In this document: positions 11,600-18,484 of the stretch, piece after piece
Layout of the letters: every line of letters starts with the position of its first letter
How positions within the stretch are numbered: position 1 is the first letter of the stretch
From: an uncultured Bacteroidales bacterium
Lineage (GTDB): Bacteria; Bacteroidota; Bacteroidia; Bacteroidales; F082
Reading direction: 5' to 3'
Assembly (NCBI GenBank): GCA_900318085.1
Contig: ONJF01000051.1
Span: 1-32,298, forward strand
DNA length: 32,298 nt
The notes under the pieces: generated by a model
Seen by the model: only the letters and a program-made list of their open reading frames with translations
Told to the model about the DNA's origin: nothing
The model's database searches: none
Made by a program: the position numbers and the translations under genes

Positions 11600-13933
11600 A
11601 TGAAGAAAGTTTGTTTACTCCTTGTCCTATTGTCAGTGACGCTGTTCTTACAAGCCCAACCCAAATCCAATTTACGTCCGCCTCGTCTCAAAGTAGGCGT
11701 GGTGTTAGGCGGTGGTGGCGCCAAAGGTGCCTCCCATATTGGTGTGTTGAAATATCTCGAAGAGATGGGCATCCCTGTCGATTATGTGGCAGGTACCAGC
11801 ATGGGTTCCATCATCGGTGGCTTCTATGCCCTGGGTTACTCGCCTGAAGAGCTCACTGAACTCATTGCTGGCATGGACTGGTCGGCCTATATCGGTAATA
11901 AGATTGATCGATCGATGATGTCGGAAGACGTCAGGCAACGCAACAGTACCATGTTGCTCCATGTGCCTTTCAGCCACGAAAGCTTGTTCGACGACGACCC
12001 CAAGTCGACGTTCATCAGCCAGCTGCCGAGTGCTTATGTCAACAACAGCTCGCTCATCAACCTGTTCAACGACTTGTGCGTAGGCTATCAGGAGGAGATG
12101 GACTTCAACGACCTTCCCATACCTTTCGCTTGTGTGGCCACCGACATGATTACGGGTGAAGAGGTGGTGTTACGCAGAGGCAGCGTGCCTACGGCCATGC
12201 GCGCCAGTATGGCTATCCCCGGTTTGTTCTCCCCGGTGACTATTGGCGATAAGGTGCTTGTCGACGGCGGCTTGGTCAACAACTTCCCGGCCGACGTACT
12301 GAAGGAGATGGGCGCCGACATCATCATTGGCGTGGAGGTGACCTCCACCAAGGATGTCACCGTCGACGACTTGAAGTCGTTGCCTCAAGTGTTTGCCCGT
12401 TTGGTCACCAATAGCACGAGTTCGAAACGAAAGGAAAATCGCGAGATGTGTTCCGTGCATATTGTCCCCGACATCAGTGGCTTTGGCATGCTCAGTTTCA
12501 CCCCCGAGGCTATCGACACTTTGGTGGGGAGAGGCTATAAACGAGCAAACGATTTTCACGACCAGCTCCTTGCCATTAAACAAGCCGTTGACGCCTCGGC
12601 AGGACATCCTGTAAGCAAGACACTCCATGCCCCTCAAGCCAAGAACCTGGCTAAAGAGTCGGTGCAGATCAAGTCCATCACCATCAACAATGTGAATGAC
12701 CGTGACAGCCGTTGGCTCATCCGTAAAGGCGGGCTGGAAGTGGGCAACTATTATTCTGAGCAAGATATCGAACGCGCCATGAACGTGTATCGTGGCACGG
12801 GTTGTTTCGACGAAGTCACCTATCAAGTCAAAGAAAACGACTCCCTCCATTTAGGCTCTGGTCTTTCGGATGCCTATAACCTGACAATTAATATGAAACC
12901 CGCCAAGCCGCATGTCTTTGGCTTGGGCATACGCTACGATACTGAGGAAGGCGCAGCACTGTTGCTTAATGTCGGTTTGAACGAGAAAAAGTTCAACGGC
13001 TCAAAACTCAATCTATCTGCGAAGTTGAGCTATAACCCCAAAATCAGCCTCAAATACACCTATTCGCGCTCTTCGTTTGCCAATTTCAATGTGTCGGGCG
13101 ACTATCGGAACGAGCATTTCCGTTCAAGAGGCATCCATGACAAGTATGTCAACTTCCATTACCAGCAAACGAAGGCGAGTGCCTATGTTTCAGAGTTTCA
13201 TTTGCTCAATATCAACACTAACGTCGGTGCATCATTCGTCCATACAACATTCGACAAGACTTCAATCATGGGTAGTGCTTTCGACTCTATCTATTACGTG
13301 AACAACGATATGCTTTCGCCTTTCATTACATTCCAATATGACAACTTGGACGACCCTTATTTTGCTAATCATGGCATCTTGTCGACCATAGGGAGCCATT
13401 ATTATTACATGACTTCCACAAAAGAGAAGTTTATGGATATTAGCTATTCCTTCCAAGCCTATGTCACTCCAAAAGACGGACGTTTCACCATTATTCCCCA
13501 GGTGTATGGCCGCTATGTAGCCAGCATCGCAAGTGATGCGTCCAGCATTCAATACTATAATTTGAGGAATATTTGCGGTGGAGAAATTGCCGGACGCCAC
13601 TTTGAAAACCAAATGCCTTTTATCGGCCTGACGAGCATTGACGATTTATCTATTGACCTGACACAAAACACAAGTATCCTTCGTTGCGATCTGCGTTATA
13701 ATTTCTACGGCAAGCATTACCTGACGGCAATGTATAATACCATAATGCCGTGGGGTTTGTTAGGCACCGGTGGGATGAATTTTACCGATATAATCCATTT
13801 CATGGTACATGGTGCAGGACTGAAGTATTCCTATAATAGTCTTTTAGGACCGGTTTCACTAACTGCTCAATGGCTCAATAATGATGGTTTAAACCATTTT
13901 GGAGCTTATTTCTCATTCGGCTATACCTTCTGA
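11600..13933 (+). CDS. Patatin-like phospholipase with POTRA and outer-membrane barrel (type Vd-like)
   Basis: A 777-aa protein with a signal peptide (MKKVCLLLVLLSVTLFLQAQ). The patatin domain has the oxyanion motif GGGGAKG (37-43), nucleophile GTSMGS (Ser67) and the catalytic aspartate in LVDGGLVNNFP. A POTRA-like domain follows (VQIKSITINNVNDRDSRWLIRKGGL ... GCFDEVTYQV). The C-terminal ~330 residues form a 16-strand-type beta-barrel ending in FGYTF, as in the Omp85/BamA group. The order patatin-POTRA-barrel is that of PlpD-like, type Vd autotransporters. The barrel should sit in the outer membrane; whether the lipase is exposed or periplasmic in Bacteroidota is unsettled. Alternative start ATG 11591. 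It overlaps the convergent gene at 13913 by 21 bases. Confidence 0.88.
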   Translation: MKKVCLLLVLLSVTLFLQAQPKSNLRPPRLKVGVVLGGGGAKGASHIGVLKYLEEMGIPVDYVAGTSMGSIIGGFYALGYSPEELTELIAGMDWSAYIGNKIDRSMMSEDVRQRNSTMLLHVPFSHESLFDDDPKSTFISQLPSAYVNNSSLINLFNDLCVGYQEEMDFNDLPIPFACVATDMITGEEVVLRRGSVPTAMRASMAIPGLFSPVTIGDKVLVDGGLVNNFPADVLKEMGADIIIGVEVTSTKDVTVDDLKSLPQVFARLVTNSTSSKRKENREMCSVHIVPDISGFGMLSFTPEAIDTLVGRGYKRANDFHDQLLAIKQAVDASAGHPVSKTLHAPQAKNLAKESVQIKSITINNVNDRDSRWLIRKGGLEVGNYYSEQDIERAMNVYRGTGCFDEVTYQVKENDSLHLGSGLSDAYNLTINMKPAKPHVFGLGIRYDTEEGAALLLNVGLNEKKFNGSKLNLSAKLSYNPKISLKYTYSRSSFANFNVSGDYRNEHFRSRGIHDKYVNFHYQQTKASAYVSEFHLLNINTNVGASFVHTTFDKTSIMGSAFDSIYYVNNDMLSPFITFQYDNLDDPYFANHGILSTIGSHYYYMTSTKEKFMDISYSFQAYVTPKDGRFTIIPQVYGRYVASIASDASSIQYYNLRNICGGEIAGRHFENQMPFIGLTSIDDLSIDLTQNTSILRCDLRYNFYGKHYLTAMYNTIMPWGLLGTGGMNFTDIIHFMVHGAGLKYSYNSLLGPVSLTAQWLNNDGLNHFGAYFSFGYTF

Positions 13934-15175
13934 TACGCCGTTTGCTAACATAAACTGACGGATTTCATCGGCATGCCGACCACGGATAATGACGTGGTGG
14001 TTGCCGATGGAATGTTGGAGCAGATAAGGCTTCAGGTTTACATTGAGCGTGATCTGTGTACGGCAGAAATGGTTGCTGTAAGGCGCCTCGATGGCTCGTG
14101 CCTCGGTGACAAAATAGCGATTCAATTTCGGACCACCCCATTTCAATAAGGTGTAGTCGGTCAGAGGCAACAAGCCTTGGATGGCCACGCCGATGCCCGA
14201 CTCGAAATGCGAACGCACCACAGTCTCGTCGCACATGGATAAGGGGATGGTGCAGTGCGCCAGCATGGAGGTCTCGTCGGTGAGGTTAGAAGGATTGGCC
14301 ATGAAGGCCGCTTCGCCACACAAACGCTTGGCCAGATACATGCTCATCAGCGTCTGCATGTCGCCCTCGCAGCCCGCCACGATGCCTTCGTCGTTGAGCA
14401 AGGCCAAGGCCAGACAACTCGTCGTGCCGCAGGCCTTCACGATGTCGAAGCAGCGGATGGTCATGGCATCCAAGTGCTCCTCTTGGCATATCCTTTTGAT
14501 GGCGAGATAGGCCTTGGCAGCCTCCAGCATGTCGGTGCTGGTGGGCTCTTTGACGGCCTTGGCGCGTTTCACCATGGCCTGCGCCACCTTCTCCGCCTCG
14601 GTCGGTGCGATGGTTTTGATGCCATCGATCAGGCGTTGTAGGTCGATGTCGATGGTCTCGATGCCATAGCGTTGGCGCAGATAATCACGGTCCACACCGC
14701 TGGCAATCAACCAATCAGAGGGTTGACCAAACAACCCGATTCTGCCTTGTAGAGACGGTGTGCACACCGTCTCTACAATGGCCGAAACAATTTCATCATT
14801 CGTCCCATGCAAAACCTTTCCTTCCACCCCAATATTGCCCAGATAGGTCAATATCTCCAAGGCGGCGGCCAACGAATTGTTGCGCCCGTCGGCAATCATC
14901 GTGACGGTTTTTTGGCGCGATGGGCTGCACATCGTTTCAACGTCGATGGACGACCAGATGCGTTTGAACAGGTTTTCTACGCCGCCGGTGGCGATCATAA
15001 ATGCATCAGGTAACATTTTTTGTAGAGACGGTGTGCACACCGTCTCTACGTTTTCATCACCAATGATATTAATTTCTGCATTACATTCGTCTTCCAACCT
15101 TTGAATCAATTCGGCATATTCATTCCTGACGAAACCATCGTTCTGGAACGAGGAACGAAGGATGATTATTTTCAT
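13913..15175 (-). CDS. L-fucose/arabinose isomerase-superfamily protein with three palindromic in-frame insertions
   Basis: A 420-aa protein. The C-terminal part resembles the fucose isomerase superfamily: TIRCFDIVKACGTTSCLALALLNDEG followed by AGCEGDMQTLMSMYLAKRL, with acidic and histidine metal-ligand candidates. Substrate unknown. The striking feature is the peptide VETVCTPSLQ at residues 43-52 and 134-143, and VETMCSPSRQ at 79-88. Copies 1 and 3 are encoded by a perfect DNA palindrome inserted without breaking the frame. Without the three decapeptides the protein would be about 390 aa. The start is the ATG at 15175 (MKIIILRSS); upstream in-frame codons run into the cloverleaf repeat. The 3' end overlaps the patatin gene. 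It follows a T9SS gene on the same strand by 141 bases. Confidence 0.75.
   Translation of the reverse strand: MKIIILRSSFQNDGFVRNEYAELIQRLEDECNAEINIIGDENVETVCTPSLQKMLPDAFMIATGGVENLFKRIWSSIDVETMCSPSRQKTVTMIADGRNNSLAAALEILTYLGNIGVEGKVLHGTNDEIVSAIVETVCTPSLQGRIGLFGQPSDWLIASGVDRDYLRQRYGIETIDIDLQRLIDGIKTIAPTEAEKVAQAMVKRAKAVKEPTSTDMLEAAKAYLAIKRICQEEHLDAMTIRCFDIVKACGTTSCLALALLNDEGIVAGCEGDMQTLMSMYLAKRLCGEAAFMANPSNLTDETSMLAHCTIPLSMCDETVVRSHFESGIGVAIQGLLPLTDYTLLKWGGPKLNRYFVTEARAIEAPYSNHFCRTQITLNVNLKPYLLQHSIGNHHVIIRGRHADEIRQFMLANGVSEGIAE
14747..14778. repeat. In-frame palindromic element, copy 3
   Basis: A perfect 32-bp palindrome (16-base arms: TTGTAGAGACGGTGTG and its complement) lies inside the isomerase-like gene. 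Read on the minus strand it encodes VETVCTPSLQ (residues 134-143). The central 30 bases are identical to the copy at 15020-15049. Confidence 0.9.
14912..14941. repeat. Decayed in-frame palindromic element, copy 2
   Basis: It encodes VETMCSPSRQ (79-88) in the same frame as the other two copies. The DNA has diverged and keeps only a short inverted repeat (CGATG...CATCG on the minus strand). Matching 7 of 10 residues and the same frame suggest an older insertion. Confidence 0.65.
15020..15049. repeat. In-frame palindromic element, copy 1
   Basis: A perfect 28-bp palindrome at 15022-15049 (arms GTAGAGACGGTGTG) plus TT at 15020-15021. It encodes VETVCTPSLQ at residues 43-52 of the isomerase-like protein. 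Confidence 0.9.
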
Positions 15176-15197
15176 GGGGTATGCGTCTTTATGCCCT

Positions 15198-15291
15198 TTG
15201 TCCTCATTGCGGGCTTGCCCCGCAATCCCTCGTGCCTTTGGTTGACGATTCTGCACGAGGGAAGGCGGATGTCCCTCCGCCATGAGGACAA
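15198..15291. repeat. Cloverleaf-like intercistronic repeat, copy 2
   Basis: The outer stem is TTGTCCTCAT (15198-15207) with ATGAGGACAA (15282-15291). The left hairpin is TGCGGG (15208-15213) with CCCGCA (15219-15224). The middle stem is TCCCTCGTGC (15226-15235) with GCACGAGGGA (15253-15262). The right hairpin is GGCGGA (15264-15269) with TCCGCC (15276-15281). It fills the gap between the T9SS thioredoxin gene and the isomerase-like gene. Same plus-strand orientation as the copy at 5068-5155. Confidence 0.8.
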
Positions 15292-15316
15292 GAGGCGTAA
15301 GGGTGTCTTTTTAAGT

Positions 15317-16843
15317 TTAATGTTTCACTACAAACCTCAGCGTGTTATTGCCAGCCTTCACGACATAAATGCCATTCTCATAACTGGCGGTGTTGATGCG
15401 AAGCTCGTTTCCGTTGGCCTCGAATTCGTCCACCATCTGGCCGAGGGCGTTATAGACGCGCACCACGCCCAGGTCTTCACCCTTCAAAGTCACGAAGGTG
15501 TTGGCAGGATTGGGATAAACCGTGATGGCTGGGTTGTCGTTTTGGCTGACACCATCTTCACAATCATGTTGTTCGTACTTCTCGGCATCCATGGCTTGAA
15601 TGATGTATTCCAGCGTAGGCGGATAGATGTCGCGGTTGGCAAAGGTGTGATCGGGACGGATGAGCATGACGGTGGGATAGTAGCCTACGGGGATGTCTTG
15701 TACAATCTGATTGCCGCCACCGTCGCGGCTGATGGTGGGATATTGCACACCGAATTGGTCGACCCAAGCATGGCACTCGTCGTCATGACCGTTGGGCGAG
15801 ATTTCCAAGAAGAACACATCGTTTTGGTTGCAGCCATAGAGACGGTAGGCTTCAACGACATCAGCCATGGGAGCTTCGCTGTACGGGTCGCCAGTAAGGA
15901 AGAAGTTGATCAGCACGGCCTGGCCAGCGTCGAGGATGTCATAGAGGTGGATCTCGTTGCCGTCGATGTCGATGGCGGTGAAGTCGGGCATGATTTCAGA
16001 GGGGCCACTGGGTGTGGTAGTGACAGGCTCTTGGACGACTTCGCCGAGGTTGCCGTCGATGTCGGCAGGCACGGCATAAATCACGTATTCCGTGTCAGGC
16101 GTCAAGTCACTGAAGGTATTGGAAATGATGTCGGAACCAGGCATGCCGTAAGTCCAGAGGTATTCGGGAAGCTCGAGGCCTGCGATGCCCATCCATTCCT
16201 GGATCTCGGCTTCGGTGGCCATCATGTAGGCATAGGAGGCGCAGTCTTCATTGGGCGTGAAGGTGGCCGTGACTTCGGTCTCCAGCACTTGGTCGACGGT
16301 GATGCTCACCTGCGGGTCATAGCTCGGCGCATTGCAGTCATGCTGTTGCAGGCCGAGTTGTTCCAAAGCGTTGATGACCGTTTGGGCATTGTTGATGGGC
16401 CACAGGTCTTGGATGACGATGGAACGATCGGGGGCGATAACGATGAGAGTGGGATAGGCACCGATTTGATACTGGTTGCAAATAGAGGTGCCACCAGCCT
16501 GTCCACTGATGGTGGGGTACTCCACGCCGTAGGTGTTCACCCAATTGAGACAGGCGGCATCACTGTCGCCTGTGGCGATTTCCATATAGAACACATCATG
16601 CATGTTGCAACCCATGGCATAGTAGGATTCCACCACTTTTGGTGTCGCCTGCTGGCAAGGACCGCAGGTGGTGAAGAAGAAGTCGATAAGCACATACTGG
16701 CCACCGTCGAGGATGTCGAACAAGTGGACTTCGGTGCCGTGAACGTCAGTAGCCGTGAAGTCAACGGCTTGTGTCAAAGGGCATTGCGCTTTCAGGCCAA
16801 AACCGAAGGCCAGCGCGAGAATAAGGGTAAATAGTTTTTTCAT
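15317..16843 (-). CDS. T9SS-secreted protein with two thioredoxin-fold domains
   Basis: A 508-aa protein with a signal peptide (MKKLFTLILALAFGFGLKAQ). The first redoxin/TlpA-like domain (about 22-165) has the active site CGPC (60-63) and cis-proline loop GAYPT. A linker of about 170-280 looks like fibronectin III (DLTPDTEYVIYAVPAD). The second thioredoxin domain (about 285-425) keeps the fold and GYYPT but has GDPYS where CGPC should be, so it cannot do thiol exchange. A type A T9SS sorting domain ends the protein (ITVYPNPANTFV, VRVYNALGQMV, NGIYVVKAG, FVVKH). It should act outside the cell or on its surface, perhaps in disulfide handling of exported proteins. A TATCTTTG element lies upstream. 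Intact. Confidence 0.85.
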   Translation of the reverse strand: MKKLFTLILALAFGFGLKAQCPLTQAVDFTATDVHGTEVHLFDILDGGQYVLIDFFFTTCGPCQQATPKVVESYYAMGCNMHDVFYMEIATGDSDAACLNWVNTYGVEYPTISGQAGGTSICNQYQIGAYPTLIVIAPDRSIVIQDLWPINNAQTVINALEQLGLQQHDCNAPSYDPQVSITVDQVLETEVTATFTPNEDCASYAYMMATEAEIQEWMGIAGLELPEYLWTYGMPGSDIISNTFSDLTPDTEYVIYAVPADIDGNLGEVVQEPVTTTPSGPSEIMPDFTAIDIDGNEIHLYDILDAGQAVLINFFLTGDPYSEAPMADVVEAYRLYGCNQNDVFFLEISPNGHDDECHAWVDQFGVQYPTISRDGGGNQIVQDIPVGYYPTVMLIRPDHTFANRDIYPPTLEYIIQAMDAEKYEQHDCEDGVSQNDNPAITVYPNPANTFVTLKGEDLGVVRVYNALGQMVDEFEANGNELRINTASYENGIYVVKAGNNTLRFVVKH

Positions 16844-17122: not shown

Positions 17123-18484
17123 CTAACTTGCTGTAGCATAAAGTTTTGCGTTTAGCGCATTTAACTGTCTTTGCGTACGTTCAATCTTTCTCTTAAGGAG
17201 TGCTTCCTCGTCCATGCCGACTCGCCCCTCGTCATAGGCCACCTTGTCCCTGACCATGATAAAGAATATCTCAGCCATCTTGTGGGCCGTGGCGACAATG
17301 GCCGACATATGACCAGCTCTTGATTTGATTCGCCTGAAGTAGAACCCCATCGGGCTGTTGGATTTTGCAACCGTATTGGCACACAGCCTGAATATCTGTC
17401 CTACGGGATTCTTCCGTCTGGGAACCCGGCTGGAGATGAGCTTCCCTCCCGATATTTTGTTGTTCGGTACCAGGTTGCACCACTTGCAGAACTTCGCGGG
17501 GGTATCGAATTTGTCAACGAAGTCCGATCCGAGTTCCCCTATCAGCTGGAGCAGCGACCCTGAACTCATGCCCGTGATGGCCATCGCATTGACTCCCCAT
17601 ATTGCATGGGCATAGGACTCGACATCGAACGCGACCGCGTTTTTCTTGCTTATCCGCTTCTTGGCACGCATCATCTCCACCTTGTCCATGTCAATCCTTG
17701 TCACGAAGCCCGTAAGCAGTTTCTCGATCTCCTTGTCGCACTCTTCCACCATGCCTTGGTAGATTTTGTACAACTCATACGACTGCCTCAACTCGAACAG
17801 ATGGTCCGCATCCCAAGTCCCCTCCAACGAGAGGGCTATCTCCTCCTTGCTCCGCTTGCAGCGCTTGTCAGCCAACGCAGAAAGCACCTGGGTGTTTCGT
17901 TCCCCGGTCAATATCGCGGTTATGATCCGTTGGCCGGACACGCCTGTGATGTCGCTTATCACGTTGGTCAACTTGATGTTCATCTGCTCCATCGCCTTCT
18001 GCATGTGCTGCACCTCCTTGCTCGCACCCTTGAGCAGGCCGTTGCGATGACGTGCAAGGTTGCGTATCTGTCGCGCGGTGTTCTCGGGCTGGAAACTGGG
18101 CTTCAGCATCCCATAGCTGTGAAGAACCAGAAGCCACTCGGCATCGGACTCGTCCGTCTTCTTCTCCGAGACGTTCTTCACCTCGCGTGCATTGCACAGC
18201 TGCACGTCAAAACCGTCATTCTGAAGCTTGAAGAACAACGGTATCCAGTAGATGCCCGTCGCTTCCATCGCAACAGTGTTTATCTTGCAGGCCTTGAGCC
18301 ATTCGCTGATCTCGTTCAGGTCGCGCGTAAAGCTCCCGAAACGGCGGTTGTTGTCGCTGTCACGGTCTGCGGGGACGCATACCTGCATCTCTGTGTCCGC
18401 AATGTCTATACCTGCTGCGTTCGGGTTCACAATTTTTAATTCAATTCCTTTGTTCGTTTGCAATTTTTTCGCTTTCTTTGCCAT
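17123..18484 (-). CDS. IS110-family transposase (DEDD recombinase)
   Basis: A 453-aa protein. The N-terminal RuvC-like DEDD domain has Asp27 (AGIDIAD), Glu74 (VAMEATG) and Asp111/Asp114 (KTDESDAEWL). The central coiled region contains LARHRNGLLKGASKEVQHMQKAM. The C-terminal Tnp_20 domain starts at ITGMSSGSLLQLIGELG, the region that carries the catalytic serine, and continues through FCKWCNLVPNNKISGGK and a final helical tail. IS110 enzymes cut and join DNA through a recombinase guided by a bridge RNA from the element's own non-coding end. All expected motifs are present and the frame is intact, so the element may be active. The start is the ATG at 18484, directly after the structured leader. 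Confidence 0.93.
   Translation of the reverse strand: MAKKAKKLQTNKGIELKIVNPNAAGIDIADTEMQVCVPADRDSDNNRRFGSFTRDLNEISEWLKACKINTVAMEATGIYWIPLFFKLQNDGFDVQLCNAREVKNVSEKKTDESDAEWLLVLHSYGMLKPSFQPENTARQIRNLARHRNGLLKGASKEVQHMQKAMEQMNIKLTNVISDITGVSGQRIITAILTGERNTQVLSALADKRCKRSKEEIALSLEGTWDADHLFELRQSYELYKIYQGMVEECDKEIEKLLTGFVTRIDMDKVEMMRAKKRISKKNAVAFDVESYAHAIWGVNAMAITGMSSGSLLQLIGELGSDFVDKFDTPAKFCKWCNLVPNNKISGGKLISSRVPRRKNPVGQIFRLCANTVAKSNSPMGFYFRRIKSRAGHMSAIVATAHKMAEIFFIMVRDKVAYDEGRVGMDEEALLKRKIERTQRQLNALNAKLYATAS

Follow-up and report, generated by a model that had tools for sequence, protein, structure and literature searches.

We found that the palindromes lying in frame in an isomerase-fold gene of an uncultured Bacteroidales bacterium are, judged by their structure, end motifs, REP type and association with RAYT genes, double-foot REPs (GTAG...CTAC) of RAYT/TnpAREP subclass 2.4. 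On the evidence of related genomes, the sites are old and in part predate the ingroup, and in-place exchange of the 10-bp core between retained 9-bp arms is supported by comparison of the orthologous sequences. We assign a probability of roughly 0.7 to the whole reading, namely that double-foot REPs were mobilised by subclass 2.4 RAYTs into sites that are now old and that their cores were later overwritten in place. The window, i.e., the whole stretch of DNA that was analyzed, comprised 32,298 nucleotides; the features under study are listed in Table 1.

Table 1. Host gene and palindromic sites in the window.
Feature	Position	Strand	Details
Host gene, L-arabinose/L-fucose isomerase-fold protein	13913..15175	minus	probable start 15175; open reading frame reaches 15283 with an upstream start
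Site S3, double-foot REP by structure, core GTGTGCACAC	14747..14778	.	perfect 32-bp palindrome; 28-bp unit 14749-14776; encodes VETVCTPSLQ
Site S2, very probably a decayed (fossil) REP	14912..14941	.	third copy, 70% identity; encodes VETMCSPSRQ
Site S1, double-foot REP by structure, core GTGTGCACAC	15020..15049	.	perfect 28-bp palindrome (28-bp unit) 15022-15049, preceded by TT; encodes VETVCTPSLQ

The initial annotation had described two perfect palindromes and one decayed copy inserted in frame in an isomerase-like gene, and both coordinates and frame confirmed this: S3, S2 and S1 share one frame of the minus-strand open reading frame 13913-15283. Two of the three reading frames of the element are open. 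Compared with shuffled sequences, the two intact copies folded far better as RNA (z -7.4 and -7.8), and S2 folded no better (z +0.4). S2 is very probably the fossil of a REP, because the relatives L016 and L023 hold a fresh palindrome at its place (with one arm mismatch in L023) and the outgroup sequence L038 retains GTAGAGACG there. An Rfam search of positions 13900-15350 returned no match.

The sole Pfam match of the host protein was PF24856 (AraA_central), at 20.2 bits, below the cut-off of 24. The top Foldseek matches of an AlphaFold2 model (30 orthologues, mean pLDDT 82.8, pTM 0.65) were 7cxo, 7cyy and 2ajt, followed later by 1fui, which are L-arabinose/L-fucose isomerases. The three inserts correspond to residues 43-52, 79-88 and 134-143 and fell mainly in blocks (mean pLDDT 60, 54 and 66) that come after a helix and ahead of the following strand. 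The first was modelled as a helix run-on (40-52), the second and third as helix end and loop; the structure check proposed at the outset to see whether the insertions fall in surface loops placed them in helix ends or loops that the predicted model gives with low confidence. Further low-pLDDT blocks were present at 151-160 (57) and 321-330 (68).

The ends of the long palindrome fit GT[AG]G at 5' and C[TC]AC at 3', and the many-copy dispersal that characterizes double-foot REPs was evident in the source genome (3,235,920 bases, 3.24 Mb, in 93 contigs), where the pattern GTAGAGACG-N(0-30)-CGTCTCTAC occurred at 79 places. The genome search suggested earlier for the 28-bp palindrome itself (GTAGAGACGGTGTGCACACCGTCTCTAC) yielded 31 exact and two one-mismatch copies. 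Reversed controls gave zero hits for both patterns, so the copies are not due to chance. Core kinds recurring in this genome were GTGTGCACAC, TGGCGCGCCG, TGCCATGGCG, CGATTAATCG and TAGCGCGCTA, plus rarer ones. Across 60 surveyed genomes, the family was present in all 36 of the genus (the source genome included) and in eight of 24 from other families of the order, each represented by one genome.

The location relative to genes was examined for 76 copies out of the 79 places. A strict codon-usage test placed 16 of the 76 well inside genes, while the pass rate of random positions from these loci was 71% (1029 of 1458); REPs are therefore depleted in genes, not absent. These 16 copies used only frame 0 (11 copies, VETxxxxSL) and frame 1 (five copies, [CG]RDxxxxVST), with none in the TAG-bearing frame, and in this they resemble Rickettsia palindromic elements (RPEs), which also lie in frame in unrelated proteins. 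The initial comparison with RPEs, as a mobile palindrome found repeatedly in frame, here in an isomerase-fold protein, was borne out to that extent. The difference is that RPEs, according to the available part of PMC3733652, have a CGTC tag at one end and no dedicated transposase, whereas here GTAG stands at both ends and cognate RAYTs are present. A looser rule counted 26 of the 76 copies as intragenic, part of which may precede the true start codon. Genes bearing REPs, named by sequence reading, included those for peptidase U32 (with four REPs, of which one has an altered arm), MalQ, a rhamnosidase, a XerD-like recombinase and type IX secretion tails. Six such tails (YPNPT...LF; L054, L069, L072, L074 and L077) carried a REP at the same domain position, with the core GTGTGCACAC in five and TGCCAGGGCG in one.

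A PF01797 search of the source genome detected eight Y1 transposases, and the family palindrome was found in the 1.5-kb flanks of two of these loci, at distances from the gene of roughly 0.9 and 1.4 kb. Reading around REP copies led to the RAYT that bears a REP. This gene (G000:C41:44892-45380) contains a GTGTGCACAC REP, placed in frame behind the HUH motif and read as ...MPNHLHAIVIISA[GRDGVHTVST]TETPSRW..., and has a second REP 93 bp before the open stretch; its motifs are HUH, WQ and YIENN. The RAYTs L141-L144 show the same arrangement, with MPNH[LV]H, then the REP, then WQPRFHDH and YIENNVA, and with a REP lying 15-93 bp ahead of the open frame. Set against the published motifs NH[IFV]H, WQ and YIxNNP, WQ is present, the HUH motif reads NHVH in L144 and NHLH in the source genome, and the Y motif reads YIENNV. 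By motif and REP type, these RAYTs are placed tentatively in subclass 2.4. The source-genome RAYT with the dominant core (G000:C41:44892-45449; L141, L219) has an in-frame TGA upstream of its HUH motif; the frame is open in its counterparts from the L013, L014 and L023 genomes.

Two RAYT queries each had matches in 26 of the 36 genomes of the genus, and cores were read at 30 + 9 opened loci, supplemented by a motif scan of some further matches. RAYTs of different kinds had different cores within the gene: GTGTGCACAC (G000, G123, G124 and G133), TGCCATGGCG (G149 and G152), the TAGC-CGCTA/TTGCG-GCAA type (G139, G134 and G125), CAAAATTTTG (G129 and G126), CGATTYATCG, in some cases single-foot (G144, G124 and G133), and CACGGCCGTG (G131, G157 and G139). 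The RAYTs L150, L152, L169 and L170 had single-foot REPs adjoining the gene. Around a more distant RAYT kind (L153-L155 and L157-L165), no family REP was found within 1.5 kb.

The age of the sites was read from 40 orthologous loci in named genomes. Their titles give bins of Bacteroidales, Bacteroidia or Bacteroidetes, many of them of ruminant origin, and in one case "bacterium F082". A REP stood at the same alignment place in 24 of 26 ingroup genomes at S1 and in 26 of 26 at S3. The two exceptions at S1 (L031 and L035) had a shorter stretch with no recognisable REP. With four codons missing ahead of its S3 REP, L033 has a shorter left flank and a different left junction. Left out of the ingroup counts were L043 (sites not parsed), L048 (a second copy in the genome of L017 with the same cores) and the fragments L049 and L052; L048 was included among the tree carriers. 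In the outgroup, L041, L042, L044, L046 and L047 had no insert at S1 or S2, and S3 of L037 was not parsed. L039 carries a REP at S1, and L038, perhaps also L037, a remnant at S2, which makes the sites in part older than the ingroup.

At these shared places the arms were conserved and the core was not. Mean pairwise identity at S1 and S3 was 0.98 and 0.90 for the 9-bp arms, and 0.34 and 0.39 for the 10-bp core; the remainder of the gene had 0.82. On a gene tree of 37 rows built without the REP sites, the 26 carriers at S1 had 11 core sequences requiring at least 17 changes, and the 32 carriers at S3 had 17 core sequences requiring at least 20, every point variant being scored as its own state. 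Merging cores two or fewer bases apart, in either orientation, left eight kinds at each site, with no fewer than 14 changes needed at S1 and 15 at S3; in the ingroup alone, at least 13 and 12 changes remained. L016 and its sister genome L023 share the core at none of the three sites, and at S2 both have a fresh REP, of unchanged length, where most others have the fossil. Next to S1, the codon before it (identity 0.38-0.46) was more variable than the gene and the bases after it ranged over 0.37-0.92, so change may not be confined to the core.

These comparisons bear on two further claims of the initial annotation. It had taken the near-identity of the two intact copies as a sign of repeated insertion or of copying within the gene; their identity does not show either event to be recent, as the sites are older than the genus sample and the present core at the intact sites is best read, from the alignments, as a later replacement. 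The refuting case that it had named, homologues across distant species with the same peptides at the same positions, was half borne out: relatives have peptides at these positions, but for the most part different ones.

An assembly artefact of metagenome bins seems scarcely credible as the source of these core differences. The titles of most named relatives read MAG, uncultured or isolate bins, and these are known from assemblies, yet both flanks are kept around the changed core and the frames stay open, while a misjoin in a 28-bp repeat would alter one flank. In addition, the separate bins L015 and L017 share the site-specific core TGCCATGTCG at S3.

The core changes were also visible in pairwise alignments of the source genome with two relatives, for REP loci at which both 100-bp flanks were alike. 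Against G133, 19 such loci comprised 15 identical 28-mers, two variants (one or two bases different) and two core swaps; against G123, 17 loci comprised 13 identical, one variant and three core swaps. The compared loci were chosen for holding GTGTGCACAC (nearly all) or, in G133, TGCCATGGCG, so the proportion of swaps does not give a rate for the whole genome. Each of the five aligned swaps changed six to 10 of the 10 core bases, between 100-bp flanks that differed by 2-22%. In the MalQ gene, for example, the source genome has CACGGCCGTG where G133 and G123 have GTGTGCACAC: eight of 10 core bases differ, all 18 arm bases are unchanged, and the flanks are 84-92% identical.

Recombination between species, bringing different cores along with homologous gene segments, is quite improbable as the cause. 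It could draw on the weak forks of the gene tree, in which 13 of 33 inner branches were well supported, and on the variable bases beside S1. It leaves unexplained, however, where many cores at one position came from, and the five swaps, with 78-98% identity per 100-bp flank, showed no core accompanied by a foreign flank at this resolution.

We consider it very improbable that point mutation followed by hairpin-templated (quasipalindrome) correction walked the core through sequence space, because the aligned swaps jump most or all of the core within such similar flanks and the swapped cores recur elsewhere in the genomes. Such correction would account for several cores lying one or two bases apart and for paired arm changes that keep the palindrome. 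The latter were seen at S3 in L028, L031, L032, L035 and L043 (which has one half of the L035 change) and at S1 in L021, and are partly amino-acid-changing. The symmetric pairs in L028, L035 and L021 show that point change preserving the palindrome is at work too, and those in L028 and L035, with the half pair in L043, point to hairpin-templated correction in addition to in-place core exchange.

The peptidase U32 gene provided a second series of sites with the same kind of core change. Among 41 orthologues, sites A, B, C and D were filled in seven, three, 21 and 20 genomes, with seven, two, seven and eight core sequences, respectively (point variants included); in the remaining genomes the loop was short or, at C and D, occupied by an unrelated palindromic repeat. 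Site B was filled at the same place in two separated lineages and empty in the other 38 of 41, which shows that repeated insertion at one spot can happen. Occupancy changed at least 11 times at C and at least 10 times at D. Loops C and D (L111-L140 and L180-L190) held several unrelated in-frame palindromic repeats in different genomes, for example of the cgtcattgcgagg...caatgacg and ggaaaacgg...ccgttttc types, and on that account look like general landing spots. The reading of site A as a single arm mutation retained across different cores (L111, L112 and L125) was given up as proof, as the tree does not group these sequences and the change is synonymous.

The U32 sites speak for recurrent independent insertion, in which a few preferred or tolerated loops would lose their REPs and receive others at the same nucleotide: site B was filled twice, and C and D hold unrelated palindromic families and changed occupancy often. 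In the isomerase-fold gene, by contrast, S1 and S3 are almost never empty in the ingroup (24 and 26 of 26 filled) despite the many changes of core kind, and in L016 and L023 a fresh REP replaces the S2 fossil with length unchanged. We therefore regard recurrent insertion as unlikely to explain the pattern and retain overwriting of the core in place as the preferred reading.

Which core stands at a site was partly linked to the resident RAYT. GTGTGCACAC occurred at a site in four of the four ingroup genomes where its RAYT was found and in none of the 22 others (Fisher, 6.7e-5, kinship ignored). Where GTGTGCACAC stood at the sites, it was also most abundant elsewhere in the same genomes (p = 0.0009, kinship ignored), and TGCCATGGCG followed the same trend (p = 0.006, kinship ignored). 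For CACGGCCGTG, no link to genome copy number was found (p = 0.28); in G140, the only two copies of CACGGCCGTG are those at its two gene sites. Exceptions for GTGTGCACAC were the outgroup sequences L039, L042 and L044, which carry it at a site; the RAYT found in the genomes of L039 and L042 bears TGCCATGGCG, not GTGTGCACAC. In the genome of L016, no TGCCATGGCG-bearing RAYT was found, though TGCCATGGCG stands at two sites.

The following sequence of events could produce these observations. The REPs would be mobilised by single-strand HUH transposases (RAYT/TnpAREP subclass 2.4) that have the same REP in frame within their own genes, and insertions into protein loops could survive because two of the three frames of the element are open. 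Later, a site would be overwritten in place: the arms (GTAGAGACG and CGTCTCTAC) and the insertion point would be kept, and the core would be replaced by another core of the family, in part one carried by the resident RAYT. We infer that the RAYT itself does the exchange, perhaps cutting at the two GTAG feet; by an alternative route, single-strand REP DNA might anneal to the resident REP at the replication fork. The E. coli TnpAREP, in the available portion of the published work, cuts and recombines single-stranded REPs in vitro, with the GTAG motif being crucial (PMC8266576), and a GTAG foot on both strands means that a REP could be opened on both sides. It is possible rather than probable that double-foot REPs and RAYTs work together as a natural system of cassette exchange, with the arms as exchange sites and the resident RAYT rewriting the core at fixed places throughout the genome. 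If so, about four amino acids in protein loops would be rewritten with frame and length unchanged.

The novelty for Bacteroidota implied by the initial annotation was not upheld, as the elements fit a class already known there. Quentin et al. (2018; PMC6006769) report subclass 2.4 in Cyanobacteria and Bacteroidetes, with double-foot REPs and an in-frame insertion in the RAYT gene, and the elements described here share with theirs the GTAG foot with its complement at both ends and Bacteroidetes among the hosts. As far as the accessible text of that paper goes, their case is an insertion in the RAYT gene, with others cited for unrelated genes; old sites in host genes with exchanged cores are what the present data add. 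Di Nocera et al. (2013; PMC3733652) describe intragenic GTAG/CGTC REPs and one instance, recB, in which X. campestris and X. oryzae have different REPs at roughly one position. Both REPs in coding regions and differing REPs at about one site are thus shared with our data; in the available part of that paper, however, the recB case is one remark, with neither an analysis of core and arms nor a link to the RAYT repertoire, and CGTC repeats, not GTAG repeats, are listed for Bacteroidetes.

In the portion available of Nunvar et al. (2013; PMC3686654), new REPs spread after an "orthoswitch" while old ones stay and decay, and the authors also mention a possible partial replacement of the originals by novel variants. 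As in their Pseudomonas and Stenotrophomonas cases, different REP classes are found at orthologous RAYT genes and a new class spreads; unlike in that published model, where old copies decay where they stand, old sites here carry new cores. With arms kept and cores changed at fixed orthologous sites, the movement of REPs can be followed one site at a time; the data also suggest that mobile hairpins in rumen bacteria rewrite short in-frame stretches of protein. Among open-licence papers, in the parts accessible, we found no report of in-place core exchange at fixed REP sites, and a literature search with the arm sequence gave no REP paper by title among the matches listed.

Two other features of the window were noted. 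Other, imperfect inverted repeats occur at 15189-15300, just upstream of the isomerase-fold gene, and an IS110-family transposase gene (PF01548, PF02371) is located at 17123-18484.
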